A DNA stretch of 64,000 nt from the NCBI RefSeq assembly GCF_009193325.2, contig NZ_CP059856.1, positions 2,418,001 to 2,482,000 on the forward strand, in the 5' to 3' direction. Shown piece by piece: positions 1 through 34,749 of this stretch; position 1 is the first letter of the stretch; every line of letters starts with the position of its first letter. Made by a program: the position numbers and the translations under genes. This DNA comes from Bacteroides zhangwenhongii (lineage in GTDB: Bacteria > Bacteroidota > Bacteroidia > Bacteroidales > Bacteroidaceae). Under the pieces are notes generated by a model. The model ran no database searches, was not told the origin of the DNA, and was given only the letters and a program-made list of their open reading frames with translations.

Positions 1-795
1 ATATAATGTCACTTCTTTAGTTCCGTCAGTAGATATCTTTCCATCATCACTAATAGCTACTCCTTTTATGTTTATCAAATTGTCAGCTGTAGGCAAAATA
101 ACCTCTTTAGTCTCATCACCGTCAAGCTGTGTCAAAAGCCAACATGGTCTATCCTCAATCTTTGTAAGGGTCGTTGTTGCATCAGTGAAAGCTCCTTTTA
201 CCCAACCTTTCAAGTCACCACTAGTAATGGCATCTTTATTGTCCGGTTCGTAGAAGTACCAATATCCTTTATCACCATTAGTACCGTTTGCTATATAAGG
301 AGAGAAACCATTAGCACCTGCCGGCCCCTCTTCTCCCTGTTCACCTGTAGCTTTATCTCCTTTCACAAATTTACCAGCTTCTTTGCTCCAGTAGTACCAA
401 TATCCGTCTTGAATATAAGGAGCTTTTGCCGACCATCCGGTCTTTTCACCATTAATCAGCCATTCGCCTGTAGTAGGGTCAACAGTCAAAATAGAGCTTT
501 GACCTTCTGCTCCAGTTGCTCCAGTATCTCCTTTATCCCCCTTTGCTCCATTTACAATTTCATAGGGCGTTCCGTCATTAAAGGTAATTTTGAAACCTCC
601 GGTGATTGGCTCAACGCTTTTAACCCATTTCCCCTCTTTAACAAATTTCTGCAGCTCAGCAATACTGGCTTTGTTTGCATCGATTTGTGTCTGCAGATTG
701 TCGATGTCATCGTCGTAGTCCTTACAGCCTACATAGGTGACTGTGGACAAAGTCAACGCTCCAAGGAACATCACTTTTACAAATTTTCTTTTCAT
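1..795 (-). CDS. Surface lipoprotein-like protein, DUF4988 / PL29 N-terminal type (partial)
   Basis: The reverse strand opens with MKRKFVKVMFLGALTLSTVT and a Cys in 'YVGCKDYDDD', a signal peptide with a lipobox-like site. A short coiled coil follows (DDIDNLQTQIDANKASIAEL), then 'VKSVEPITGGFKITFNDG' and a collagen-like stretch with GAKGDKGDTGATGAEG. Repeated 'GYWYYW' / 'GYWYF' modules come next. This is the N-terminal design of the DUF4988 (PL29 N-terminal) family, which includes Bacteroides surface proteins. The reading frame is open at the window edge after 265 codons, so the main body is missing. The gene lies 61 bases downstream of an invertible promoter segment, so it is probably phase variable, as in the BT1927-type S-layer loci of B. 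thetaiotaomicron. A structural or S-layer role is inference; a polysaccharide-binding role is also possible. Confidence 0.8.
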   Translation of the reverse strand, partial: MKRKFVKVMFLGALTLSTVTYVGCKDYDDDIDNLQTQIDANKASIAELQKFVKEGKWVKSVEPITGGFKITFNDGTPYEIVNGAKGDKGDTGATGAEGQSSILTVDPTTGEWLINGEKTGWSAKAPYIQDGYWYYWSKEAGKFVKGDKATGEQGEEGPAGANGFSPYIANGTNGDKGYWYFYEPDNKDAITSGDLKGWVKGAFTDATTTLTKIEDRPCWLLTQLDGDETKEVILPTADNLINIKGVAISDDGKISTDGTKEVTLY

Positions 796-856
796 AACTA
801 CTTAAAAATTACATTAATAATATATTATTAAACACTAAGTTTCAATAATAGCATCC

Positions 857-877
857 CCGTTACTTTATAGGTAACGG
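857..877 (+). repeat. Left inverted repeat of the invertible segment
   Basis: The 21-bp copy begins CCGTTACTTTATAG and ends GTAACGG. It is the presumed crossover site on the surface-gene side, 61 bp from that gene's start codon. Confidence 0.88.
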
Positions 878-1093
878 GAGAACCTTTGTTCCTGCTCTTT
901 TGAGTAGTCTATATGGAAAAAGCATTTCAAATGGAGATGAAACTTTTTTACCCCTGCTAGTAAAAACGGCAGAGGGGAAGGAAATCATTATATCAATTAC
1001 TCAGATCATAAAAAGTCCGGTAGAAAGAAATCCTCAGTTTTGCCCTATTATTTTCTTTTTTTTAGTAGTTTCTCCGAAATAATATTATTTTTG

Positions 1094-1125
1094 TTTGCTT
1101 GTTTCCGGAAATATATGCATCTTTG
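1094..1125 (+). promoter_or_regulatory. Promoter inside the invertible segment, OFF orientation
   Basis: TTTG at 1094-1097, 20 bases, then CATCTTTG at 1118-1125 fits the Bacteroides -33/-7 pattern with one mismatch in the -7 box. It points right, into the 3' end of the recombinase gene. No equally good promoter in the segment faces the surface gene: the best minus-strand -7 (928-935) has no -33 partner. Confidence 0.65.
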
Positions 1126-1140
1126 CAGCGCTGTTCAATG

Positions 1141-1161
1141 CCGTTACCTATAAAGTAACAG
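1141..1161 (-). repeat. Right inverted repeat of the invertible segment
   Basis: Reverse complement of 857-877 with one mismatch at 1160. It ends 8 bp from the stop codon of the recombinase gene. Confidence 0.88.
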
Positions 1162-1169
1162 ACAATATA

Positions 1170-2108
1170 TCAGATGATTACGCAATCGAAAGAGCGTTTA
1201 ATAAAATCAATAATGAGTTTGTTTGCTTCATCAATTTTCTTATTCTGAAATGGCTTTAAATACGTCTCGGTCACAGTAATGGATGAATGCCCCATAGACT
1301 GTGAAATAATTCCAGGATGCACCTCGCAATAATAAGCGGTAGTAGCCCAAGTATGCCGGGCGGTGTACGAACTTAATCTGTTCGGTATTCCCAAAAACTC
1401 TCCTAATATCAATAATTGGCGATTGAAACTGCGTAGTGCCAACTGATACTCCCGATAAGCTTCCATTGTCCCTTCAGGACTTCTTAAGAACGAAAACAGA
1501 TAGGGGGAATGTACATCCTGATTCATATACATTCTTACTATTCTCATCGCCTCATTAGTCAAGGTCACCGAAAGGGGACGTCCTGTTTTCCGTCTGCGGT
1601 AAGTGATGACATTGCCATGCAGATCACTTTTACGAAGATAAGCGAGATCAACGAAAGGCATACCGCGCATCAGGAACATAAGAATAAAAAAGTGTCGTGC
1701 GCGTTGCATGGCCGGATTTACTCCGGATAATAAAATTAATCCGGCAAATATCTTTTCCACGTCCCCTGTCTCCAAAGCACGTTGATGTTCCGCCCGGGTT
1801 CCGGTATAAACGTAACGGAACAAACGAGGGATATATTTCGCCTCATTGTTGTCGACAGCACGATTATACACGGCACGAAGTATGCGCATATAAGTGGACA
1901 CTGTATTCCAACTGCACTTGCGCTTACGAAGATGAATCTCGAACCCCTTTAACCACTCCGGCGTGATCTCGTTAAATGTAAAATCTTCACCCCCACAATA
2001 AGCGATAATGGCATTGAGACTGCTGCGATATACATGGGCGGTCCCAAAGTTTCCTCCCATTTGTAACCCATCGGCTACTTCTTTCATAAATGTCAGTACG
2101 TTCAACAT
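1170..2108 (-). CDS. Tyrosine recombinase (DNA invertase of the adjacent promoter)
   Basis: A 312-residue protein with a SAM-like N-terminal half and a C-terminal phage-integrase domain. The catalytic set reads R148 (LMRGMPF), K174 (RRRKTGR), R251 (SYTARHTW), H274 (SMGHSS) and Y283 (TETYLKPF). The first position of the HxxR box is Tyr248, as in many Bacteroidetes recombinases. The size and the lack of other phage or transposon genes fit the small Bacteroides invertases that flip promoters beside them. Its stop codon lies 8 bp from the right inverted repeat, so in the present orientation the invertible promoter drives antisense RNA into this gene's 3' end, a possible feedback that remains speculation. 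The start codon follows an unusually strong ribosome binding site. Confidence 0.92.
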   Translation of the reverse strand: MLNVLTFMKEVADGLQMGGNFGTAHVYRSSLNAIIAYCGGEDFTFNEITPEWLKGFEIHLRKRKCSWNTVSTYMRILRAVYNRAVDNNEAKYIPRLFRYVYTGTRAEHQRALETGDVEKIFAGLILLSGVNPAMQRARHFFILMFLMRGMPFVDLAYLRKSDLHGNVITYRRRKTGRPLSVTLTNEAMRIVRMYMNQDVHSPYLFSFLRSPEGTMEAYREYQLALRSFNRQLLILGEFLGIPNRLSSYTARHTWATTAYYCEVHPGIISQSMGHSSITVTETYLKPFQNKKIDEANKLIIDFIKRSFDCVII

Positions 2109-2381: not shown

Positions 2382-2558
2382 TTACTTTTTAGAAGCTTCC
2401 AAAGATGCTTTACGGAATTCTTTCATTGCTTTTTCGATTTCCAAAGAAGCTTTACGAGCGCGAGTTCCTGCTGCTTTGTTACCGTTTTCAATCTGAGCGT
2501 TAGCATCTTTTGCGAAGTCAGCATACAGAGCTGCTACTTTTTCTACCAATTCTTTCAT
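2382..2558 (-). CDS. Histone H1-like protein, Hc1 family
   Basis: A 58-residue, strongly helical, Lys/Ala-rich protein (MKELVEKVAALYADFAKDAN ... KAMKEFRKASLEASKK), typical of the short Hc1-like proteins found in nearly all Bacteroides. They are thought to bind DNA and help organise the nucleoid. The start at 2558 is chosen because the longer frame upstream codes for an unlikely Phe/Tyr-rich leader. The gene is followed by a clear hairpin terminator. Confidence 0.85.
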   Translation of the reverse strand: MKELVEKVAALYADFAKDANAQIENGNKAAGTRARKASLEIEKAMKEFRKASLEASKK

Positions 2559-2705
2559 AATCCTTTTATTTTTTTCGTTAATAATGTGTCGCAAAAATAC
2601 ACTGTTTCCCGAAATAAACGCATAAAAACAATATTTTTTTTGAAATATTCTTTGAAAATAATGCAAAAAAAGGTCTTTTCGCCATTTTTACCTACCTTTG
2701 TAGCC

Positions 2706-3353
2706 ATGAAACCGCTTACAGATACCGATTATATACATACTTTGATTGCTGAAGGAGAGCATCAACAACAGGACTTCAAATTTGAAATTTCCGATGCACG
2801 CAAGATAGCCAAAACCTTGTCCGCTTTTGCCAACACCGACGGAGGAAGATTGCTTATTGGCGTGAAAGACAATGGAAAAATAGCAGGCGTACGTTCCGAA
2901 GAGGAGAAATATATGATTGAGGCGGCCGCACAACTTTATTGTGTGCCCGAAGTGGAATATACAATGCAAACATACATAGTAGAAGGACGACAGGTATTGG
3001 TAGTCACTATCGAAGAGACCCTTCACAAACCGGTGTATGCCAAAGACGAAACCGGAAAACCGCTCGCCTATCTCCGTATCAAGGACGAAAACATATTGGC
3101 GACACCTATACATCTCCGCGTGTGGCAACAGAGCGACAATCCCCGTGGCGAACTAATCCGTTACACTGAACGTGAACAGCTTTTGCTCGATCAACTGGAA
3201 CACGGTACTTTACTATCACTCAACCGTTATTGTCGTCAGACAGGAATCTCACGCCGTGCCGCCGAACATCTGCTTGCCAAATTCGTTCGTTATGGTATTG
3301 CAGAACCTGTATTCGAAAATCATAAATTCTACTTCCGGATGAAAGGTGAATGA
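2706..3353 (+). CDS. AlbA_2 (Schlafen-type) DNA-binding domain protein
   Basis: A 215-residue protein. The N-terminal 'EGEHQQQDFKFEISDARKIAKTLSAFANTDGGRLLIGVKDNGKIAGV' is the hallmark of AlbA_2/Schlafen domains (E...DFK, ANTDGG, GV.D.G), followed by 'PVYAKDE...AYLRIKDEN' of the same fold. The C-terminal third (LSLNRYCRQTGISRRAAEHLLAKFVRYGI) looks like a winged helix. Such proteins are putative transcription regulators or nucleic-acid binders. ATG at 2706 is chosen because a -7-like box TACCTTTG ends at 2700, only 5 bases upstream; if that box is used, the mRNA would have almost no leader. An alternative in-frame ATG lies at 2661. The frame upstream of it is unlike protein. Confidence 0.8.
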   Translation: MKPLTDTDYIHTLIAEGEHQQQDFKFEISDARKIAKTLSAFANTDGGRLLIGVKDNGKIAGVRSEEEKYMIEAAAQLYCVPEVEYTMQTYIVEGRQVLVVTIEETLHKPVYAKDETGKPLAYLRIKDENILATPIHLRVWQQSDNPRGELIRYTEREQLLLDQLEHGTLLSLNRYCRQTGISRRAAEHLLAKFVRYGIAEPVFENHKFYFRMKGE

Positions 3354-7303: not shown

Positions 7304-8899
7304 TTATTTCAAATTATTATTTCCTGTGTCCCACCATAGGCGTGTACCTTCATGATCTTCTCCATCCAAGGCTTTCACAAGGGCAGAATATTGCTTCGGA
7401 TCTTCTGTTTGCAAAGTACCGGGAAAGTGAAGTCGACGTACCATCGTCTCCGAATCTATACATCCGTTCCTGCTATGATTGAAACGTACGGGAAACAAGC
7501 GGGGATATCCCGTACGTCGTTGTTCAGCCCAAGCTTCACAGCCTTCGGGAAACATGGCAATCCACTTTTGGGTAATAATCTTCTCCAGCTTTTTCTCCTT
7601 ATCATCCGACGGATTCCATTTTGGTGATACCTTACAACGAGCTTCCATATTATTCTCCGTTTCATAAGTGTCTACAAAATTCGAAGCTATCCGTTCGCTC
7701 TTCAAGTAATCTTCTACTCCATAGACACCCCATTGTTCGAAAGAAGTCATCACTCCGTTCCGATAGCAGTTTTCTTCATCTTCGTCTGTCCAACCGCGTA
7801 AAGCGGCCTCAGCACGTAAAAACCAGACTTCAGAAGCCGTCATCAGAGGTGCGTCCGTAGCCTGTGTGACCGACAATCGGGACAGCCCTGCATAATGATT
7901 ATGTGCAAAACAGGTTCCCTGACGAATGCCACGATACTCTCCCCTAAACTTTTCATCCGTACAAGGAACGAAATAGGCTTTGAGTCGGGGATCATCGTAT
8001 CCCGTAAGTATAGACTCCATTGAAGCATTCATATACGTTTCATTCCACACCAGATTAAGTTCTCCCAACGGATTAGTATATCCCGTTTTTGTAGAAACCG
8101 CAACTTTTTCCGATCCTCTCTCAAAGAAGCCGTAATCATTTTTCTTTATCTTCTCTATTTCCAAACGTGCCTTGTCGGGAGCGATTGATGCAAGACGCAT
8201 AGCCAAACGCAAGCGCAGAGAATTGGCAAACTTCACCCAAGAGGAATACTTGCCATCCAGCAGAATATCAAAACGGGCGAACCCATTGGATTCCGGTTTT
8301 TCTTCGATATAACCAGTAAGAGCGACAACGGCAGAATCCAATTCATTAAAAAATTCATAATAGGCCTCTTTCTGCGTATCAGGTTGATAATGCTTTTCCG
8401 CATTCGCAAAATACCTGTAAATAATAGGGCCATAGTAATCCGTTACCCGATGCATCACTTCCACTTTCAATATTTTCGTAATACCGAACAGAGCTGGATG
8501 AGTATCACGGGTAGCATTCTCCGACTGATATATCTGTGGAAAAATATACGAATACATATGTGTCCACATCGCACTATTCCAACCGTCCTGCATATTATAA
8601 TCGGAATTATTGGAACCGCCGTTCAGAGGTTTGGCGTCATGCATATATCCACTGAACATATCCGCATTCAGGTTCTGTATCAACTGGAAAGGCCAGTTCT
8701 TCCCCTTTCCGTAATCGTAATTAAAATAAATGCCTTGTTGGATAATCCCCAGACGGATTCCATAACCATTATCGTCAATGATCAGATCTTCATCCGTAAT
8801 GCCGGACAGATCGGTATTATAATCGCGGAAGTTACCCGTGCATGCTACGCAAAAAAGCCACCAGCCTATCAAATATAAATATATGTATCGTTTCTTCAT
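7304..8899 (-). CDS. SusD/RagB-like surface lipoprotein (SusD_2 type)
   Basis: A 531-residue lipoprotein with signal 'LIGWWLFCVACTGNFRDYNT', where the Cys after VA is the lipidation site. 'FRDYNTDLSGITDEDL' followed by an early ligand region and helical TPR-like repeats (SSWVKFANSLRLRLAMRLAS) and 'KIITQKWIAMFPEGCEAWAE' is the standard SusD text. It caps the SusC transporter upstream, 16 bp away, and captures ligand at the cell surface. The ligand is unknown: no glycoside hydrolase, sigma/anti-sigma pair or hybrid sensor lies next to the pair. The immediate neighbours downstream are nucleobase transport genes. Confidence 0.93.
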   Translation of the reverse strand: MKKRYIYLYLIGWWLFCVACTGNFRDYNTDLSGITDEDLIIDDNGYGIRLGIIQQGIYFNYDYGKGKNWPFQLIQNLNADMFSGYMHDAKPLNGGSNNSDYNMQDGWNSAMWTHMYSYIFPQIYQSENATRDTHPALFGITKILKVEVMHRVTDYYGPIIYRYFANAEKHYQPDTQKEAYYEFFNELDSAVVALTGYIEEKPESNGFARFDILLDGKYSSWVKFANSLRLRLAMRLASIAPDKARLEIEKIKKNDYGFFERGSEKVAVSTKTGYTNPLGELNLVWNETYMNASMESILTGYDDPRLKAYFVPCTDEKFRGEYRGIRQGTCFAHNHYAGLSRLSVTQATDAPLMTASEVWFLRAEAALRGWTDEDEENCYRNGVMTSFEQWGVYGVEDYLKSERIASNFVDTYETENNMEARCKVSPKWNPSDDKEKKLEKIITQKWIAMFPEGCEAWAEQRRTGYPRLFPVRFNHSRNGCIDSETMVRRLHFPGTLQTEDPKQYSALVKALDGEDHEGTRLWWDTGNNNLK

Positions 8900-34656: not shown

Positions 34657-34749
34657 TCACCACAGATTACACAGATTCTCACAGATTATTTTCATTAAAA
34701 AACAACAGTTTAATGATTAATCTGTGAGAATCTGTGTAATCTGTGGTGA
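34657..34749. repeat. 32-bp perfect inverted repeat (dispersed ATCTGTGTAATCTGTGG family)
   Basis: Arms 34657-34688 and 34718-34749 are exact reverse complements around a 29-base loop. They carry the phrase AATCTGTGTAATCTGTGG. Similar text recurs at 40061-40092 and, with C for T, at 63405-63464. It sits between rny and cutC and could end rny transcription. Confidence 0.85.

Follow-up and report, generated by a model that had tools for sequence, protein, structure and literature searches.

The window analysed here, a stretch of 64,000 nucleotides from Bacteroides zhangwenhongii, very probably contains a site-specific switch, in which an adjacent tyrosine recombinase inverts a 263-bp promoter segment upstream of a surface-lipoprotein gene. 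The recombinase would pair two 21-bp sites and invert the DNA enclosed by them. The promoter faces away from the lipoprotein gene in the sequenced orientation, which should thus represent the OFF state, and after inversion it would drive this gene via a leader of ~90 nt (ON state). Judging by its conservation, a near-invariant 45-nt leader, which remains attached to the gene, may provide a further level of control once inversion has taken place. The arms, the promoter boxes and the layout of the locus are seen directly, as are both orientations among its relatives.

The relatives were collected with a 521-base query over the locus in the OFF arrangement (matches in 42 of 149 genus genomes at E ≤ 0.001) and with a scan of named genomes, which gave four further recombinase relatives of 69 to 74% identity. 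Together with the named records and the own locus this amounts to 63 recombinase matches in 60 loci; a repeat pair lies beyond the recombinase tail in 58 of them, the dropped matches being L075 (masked) and L076, L090, L092 and L094 (without a tail-side repeat). Removal of the duplicates of the named records L014, L015 and L016, recognized by contigs of equal length and by matching positions, reduced the 58 to the 55 modules used below.

Recombination sites, promoter and recombinase

The left arm (857–877, CCGTTACTTTATAGGTAACGG) and the right arm (1141–1161, CCGTTACCTATAAAGTAACAG), to which no strand is assigned, are reverse complements of each other with 20 of 21 positions matching and a perfect core of 19 bp (859–877 and 1141–1159). 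Perfect inverted repeats with a spacing of up to 500 bp did not exceed 15 bp in any of 40 dinucleotide shuffles of the 64-kb window, and the 21-bp inverted repeats described in the initial annotation are confirmed. At the same spacing limit the window's longest such repeat measures 32 bp and appears to be the one around 34669–34737. The invertible interior (263 bp, 878–1140, likewise unstranded) lies between the arms and was compared with the interiors of the 54 other non-duplicate modules.

Each arm is itself built of two short inverted arms flanking a 7-bp spacer (CCGTTAC-N7-GTAACGG on the left, CCGTTAC-N7-GTAACAG on the right), which is the usual appearance of a tyrosine-recombinase site. 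Both arms fit the consensus CCGTTACCTABVRAGTAAC exactly (CCGTTACCTATAAAGTAAC at 1141–1159 and its complement at 859–877). The spacer varies from locus to locus and is identical in both arms of 52 of the 53 modules with a core readable in both arms (L072 and L086, where one arm is unreadable, were left out); the single module with unequal spacers is L058. Tyrosine recombinases need matching spacers for strand exchange, so the sameness of the spacer within a locus supports working sites.

It was also considered that nearby loci might avoid a common spacer triplet and so be insulated from each other. None of 10 neighbour combinations closer than 15 kb (from G001, G021, G078, G082, G143 and G146) share a triplet, which is not significant against within-genome shuffles (P = 0.11; 104 pairs from 16 of 21 distinct genomes, leaving out G012, G110, G034, G095, G117, unpaired sites and one unequal-triplet pair in G030). 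Many distant loci do have common spacers. The idea was rejected.

The promoter inside the segment consists of a −33 box TTTG (1094–1097, plus strand) and a −7 box CATCTTTG (1118–1125, plus strand; family form CAnnTTTG) separated by 20 nt, as the initial annotation had proposed. Both boxes are conserved: the T, T, T and G of the −33 box occur in 55, 55, 53 and 53 of the 55 modules, and in the −7 box TTTG is found in all 55 and CA in 52. The module promoters fit the Bacteroides consensus TTTG/TAnnTTTG, as given in an excerpt of PMC7366714, but carry a family-specific C instead of T. In all 55 modules, read in the OFF arrangement, the −7 box is found close to the arm on the recombinase side; in the window transcription is expected to start near 1130. 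A sigma-70 scan is uninformative for Bacteroides promoters. The hairpin at 935–985 (z −2.88 on the plus and −2.08 on the minus strand) was rejected as a terminator, since a T run is absent after it on both strands.

The recombinase gene (1170–2108, minus strand) encodes a tyrosine recombinase of 312 aa and has its tail towards the segment. The domains Phage_int_SAM_5 and Phage_integrase (PF13102, PF00589) score over the Pfam cut-offs, and the stop codon (1170–1172) is located 8 bp beyond the right arm, both as expected from the initial annotation. This is likely the dedicated invertase of the segment; that the segment inverts in this strain, and that this enzyme is the one matched to these sites, is proposed by analogy with BT1927 of B. 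thetaiotaomicron. In 41 of the 55 modules 10 bp separate the repeat core from the stop codon of the recombinase gene. The layout common to the relatives is in part a search condition, since repeats were sought only past the recombinase tail. In the available part of a wider survey of invertons (PMC11892184) the neighbouring invertases are generally not positioned for transcription from the promoter of the inverton, and the tail-to-segment layout observed here agrees with this. Upstream of the recombinase lies a gene of a small Hc1 (histone H1-like) protein (2382–2666, minus strand), followed by a terminator-like hairpin at 2350–2319.

On the opposite side of the segment the window holds the 5' part of an S-layer-like lipoprotein gene (1–795, minus strand), which extends past the window edge (L009:8186-10795) and encodes 869 aa in a frame open over all 869 codons. 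The protein starts with a signal peptide and ..TYVGC followed by KDYDDD, which we take, by eye and against known motifs, to be a lipobox and a surface-export signal. The initial annotation had called the gene a DUF4988-type surface gene. A surface-lipoprotein gene is indeed found opposite the recombinase, but the DUF4988 match stays under the Pfam cut-off of 30 (27.8 bits for the part in the window and 25.6 bits for the whole protein); the domain is carried by some homologues. The protein has homologues along its full length in Bacteroides, among them a 951-aa protein of B. thetaiotaomicron with 34% identity at 100% query coverage, the sole homologue from that species named among the best 120 matches, and the nearest species-named source among these 120 is B. 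finegoldii (91%). None of the solved structures match it by sequence. Its role in S-layer formation is presumed by analogy. The lipoprotein gene is followed by one for a radical-SAM protein.

Relation to known Bacteroides switches

According to passages of PMC12118408, repeats of the form CCGTTACCTABVRAGTAAC occur at BT1927 and at seven other B. thetaiotaomicron loci, in the vicinity of integrases and surface proteins; four capsule loci carry CCGTTACCTAAGAAGTAAC repeats with a tyrosine-type recombinase alongside. Parts of PMC12548429 place the BT1927 promoter between inverted repeats, where mutation of one repeat locks the orientation, report that BT1927 is expressed in vitro by about 1 cell in 1,000, and describe S-layer switching as a protection of Bacteroides against phages. 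The window locus resembles BT1927 and the seven other loci, as far as these excerpts describe them, in the exact repeat consensus, the promoter between the repeats, the neighbouring integrase and the downstream surface-lipoprotein gene. It is thus well supported as a further member of the already known S-layer-type invertons of Bacteroides, and the connection with S-layer switching drawn at the outset is strengthened by the exact fit to the published consensus, by the conserved boxes and by related loci in the other orientation.

Unlike BT1927, the locus belongs to another species and is followed by the radical-SAM gene instead of an OmpA-family partner. BT1926 is described in part of PMC12578637 as a putative outer-membrane anchor of BT1927. 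Because no OmpA-family gene lies next door, the window locus is not called a BT1926-27 orthologue. Among the four named relatives such a partner (a 367-aa OmpA-domain gene) was found beside L015 of B. faecis and, judged by the listed protein starts, not at L013, L014 or L016.

The capsule (CPS) invertible promoters, as described in the same passages of PMC12118408, have the same CCGTTACCTAAGAAGTAAC-type repeat scheme and a tyrosine-type recombinase. Two loci of this kind are present in this genome; they differ from the window locus in preceding a NusG-like gene and in their spacer triplet (AGA versus TAA). Another system that inverts the promoters of surface genes is Mpi of B. fragilis. Mpi is a serine recombinase acting globally, in contrast to the tyrosine recombinase adjoining the segment in the window.

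The core GTTACCTA-N3-AGTAAC occurs without mismatches at eight sites of the own genome, four per strand (none for the reversed control). These form four pairs: the one at this locus, one upstream of fimbrillin genes and two upstream of the NusG-like genes in capsule loci, with the spacer triplets TAA, CAA and, in both capsule pairs, AGA. Every pair adjoins a gene with tyrosine-recombinase domains. All four are OFF, with the promoter toward the recombinase and not toward the surface genes, as judged by eye and by a score that is weak for the two capsule loci. The second pair (L010, G000:C1:2011000-2028000, repeats at about 8191–8496) encloses an invertible promoter before fimbrillin-like genes (Mfa_like_1, Mfa2 and DUF3575), which may be phase-variable as well.

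Orientation of the segment and rival explanations

In the sequenced consensus the locus is OFF, since the promoter points away from the S-layer-like lipoprotein gene; this direction supports the OFF orientation assigned in the initial annotation and describes the assembly consensus only, in which minority orientations are invisible without reads. When the 55 modules were oriented by alignment, 54 proved to be OFF and one ON (L085, with a full-length recombinase), a ratio that may overstate OFF because the OFF-arranged query favours OFF loci. The orientation-neutral query with the interior only gave hits in 19 of 158 genomes (E ≤ 1e-8), and the extra places are outside the 54:1 count. The presence of ON and OFF loci among the modules means that both orientations occur in nature.

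Several of the loci set aside deserve description. L076 (G030:C1:2032600-2038900) and L090 (G030:C1:444400-450900) are ON, and in both the recombinase match is confined to the final part of the enzyme. Two additional integrase genes stand next to each of them (with the domains examined at L076), and at L090 a transposase gene is inserted between promoter and surface gene. The arms of L076 have unequal spacers, so this locus may be stuck ON. At L092 (G117:C5:274000-281700) the repeats at 3135 and 4513 delimit a possible invertible unit of ~1.4 kb holding the recombinase and an outward promoter. It is flanked on both sides by a 964-aa S-layer-like gene in an inverted duplication that is 99.9% identical over 3,157 bp; the duplication measures ~3.2 kb in all and is either real or an assembly artefact. 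At L094 (G022:C8:109200-115700; repeats at 3174 and 4534) the recombinase is likewise inside the segment, an S-layer-like gene is present on one side only and the promoter is directed away from this gene.

The OFF state of the window would also be seen in a relic, the segment of which flips no longer and leaves the surface gene permanently silent. Decayed relatives do exist, for example L076 and L090, in which the recombinase is truncated, or L058, in which the two spacers differ, and this genome shows OFF only. A relic is nevertheless very unlikely here: the recombinase is full-length and has many near-identical copies among the best 120 protein-database matches, the spacer is identical in both arms, the promoter boxes are intact and the S-layer-like reading frame is open across its 869 codons. 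The adjacent recombinase could also be a passenger, with another recombinase flipping all four pairs of the genome, as the GTTACCTA-N3-AGTAAC core common to them might suggest. We regard this as distinctly improbable, given that every one of the four pairs has its own adjoining recombinase gene and that the module of repeat pair plus recombinase recurs across the genus.

A further proposal, which builds on a feedback considered possible in the initial annotation, adds to inversion by the adjacent recombinase and does not replace it. The OFF promoter aims into the 3' end of the recombinase gene, with 8 bp from the arm to the stop codon, and would transcribe antisense through this gene and lower the amount of recombinase, so that OFF cells switch rarely and ON cells revert faster. 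With the same sites and the same enzyme level in both states flipping alone would give approximately equal numbers, and less recombinase in OFF cells would shift the balance to OFF; the feedback, if real, would therefore explain the prevalence of OFF. It is consistent with the scan of the plus strand from the promoter to 2108, where no terminator-like site was found, with the 10-bp distance from core to stop in most modules, with the 54 OFF modules against one ON, and with the rare expression of BT1927 reported in the part of PMC12548429 mentioned above. However, a growth cost of the coat or OFF-biased sampling would equally favour OFF, and the layout of the relatives is partly set by the search for tail-side repeats. 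Moreover, at L092 and L094 the recombinase is itself part of the segment and the promoter is directed away from it, and since these loci are devoid of the tail-to-promoter geometry, the family can work without the antisense arrangement. The feedback therefore appears rather doubtful, and inversion by the adjacent recombinase is retained as the explanation of the locus with or without it. A literature search of limited scope (titles and abstract openings) gave no description of antisense control of the recombinase or of the leader considered below.

The conserved leader of the surface gene

The 45 nt preceding the start codon (796–840, minus strand) lie outside the invertible segment and are near-identical across 30 modules. 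They contain an 18-bp palindrome, TTAATAATATATTATTAA, at 814–831. In 435 pairwise comparisons of these 30 modules the mean identity of the last 45 nt of the leader is 99.4%, as compared with 84.7% for codons 1–25 (68.9% at third positions), 80.1% for the segment interior and 76.7% for the last 300 nt of the recombinase. Even where the recombinases fall below an identity of 0.70 (45 pairs), leader identity stays at 99.6%, with third positions at 60.4%. The neighbouring codons are thus not homogenised, which makes gene conversion a poor explanation for the leader and selection a better one.

The 30 modules were first chosen by the presence of the palindrome, which could inflate the identity. Choice by the protein start instead gave 30 of the 55 modules, with the 45-nt leader identical in 27 of the 30 and a mean identity of 99.4% (99.3% over the 27 nt that remain when the palindrome is set aside). 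Gaps were allowed in the comparison of the 30 modules; without them, indels in two modules depress the value (91.6% for 55 nt). A second AT-rich leader with a different 18-bp palindrome is present in ten modules, which are 10 of the 11 with the protein start MNKK. The other 15 of the 55 modules, among them the other three of the own genome, belong to neither class. The B. faecis locus with the OmpA-family partner (L015, identical with record L068) carries a leader of the second class; BT1927 also has a partner and may therefore belong to this class.

With up to 3 mismatches allowed, a 29-nt core of the leader occurs at 44 places, spread over 23 of 158 genus genomes; 39 of these places match exactly, and a control pattern gave none. 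In a family sample of 201 genomes all three matches are within the genus, and none was found in the 188 genomes from other genera. When ten distinct leader places were checked for the repeat over 1,200 bp upstream, the pair was present at six of them and was not found within this distance at L091, L093, L095 and L097 (the core has 3 mismatches at L095 and 2 at L097). The leaders of these four loci also precede lipoprotein genes with the same start type. The leader would thus be independent of the inverton, as it is present at S-layer-like genes where the repeat pair was not found over these 1,200 bp.

A simple RNA hairpin in the leader is disfavoured. On its own the leader RNA has no folding advantage over shuffles (z +0.39 for 55 nt and +0.98 for 45 nt); the stretch 790–880, which does fold better (z −2.57), includes the palindromic repeat arm. 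This result speaks against a simple hairpin but leaves room for a translation element or a site bound by a protein. No Rfam match reached a gathering score, and the passages of PMC12118408 and PMC12548429 on untranslated regions and palindromes do not mention the leader.

The near-invariance of the leader suggests that it may be a second control element attached to the gene. Tentatively, and as one possible reading of this pattern, the locus would be a two-layer switch, in which the promoter flips and the leader gates expression afterwards, either as a site bound by a regulator or as an element of the mRNA. The available part of PMC12548429 leaves unexplained why the coat is missing from some locked-on cells, and if the two-layer reading is true, elements of the leader type could be the checkpoint responsible. 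The switch itself is ordinary: the window locus is a clear added example, and its layout of promoter, repeats and recombinase is widely common in the genus. A specialist may be more surprised by the leader, which, being better conserved than the sequences measured around it, offers a target for finding what besides the flip decides the display of the coat.
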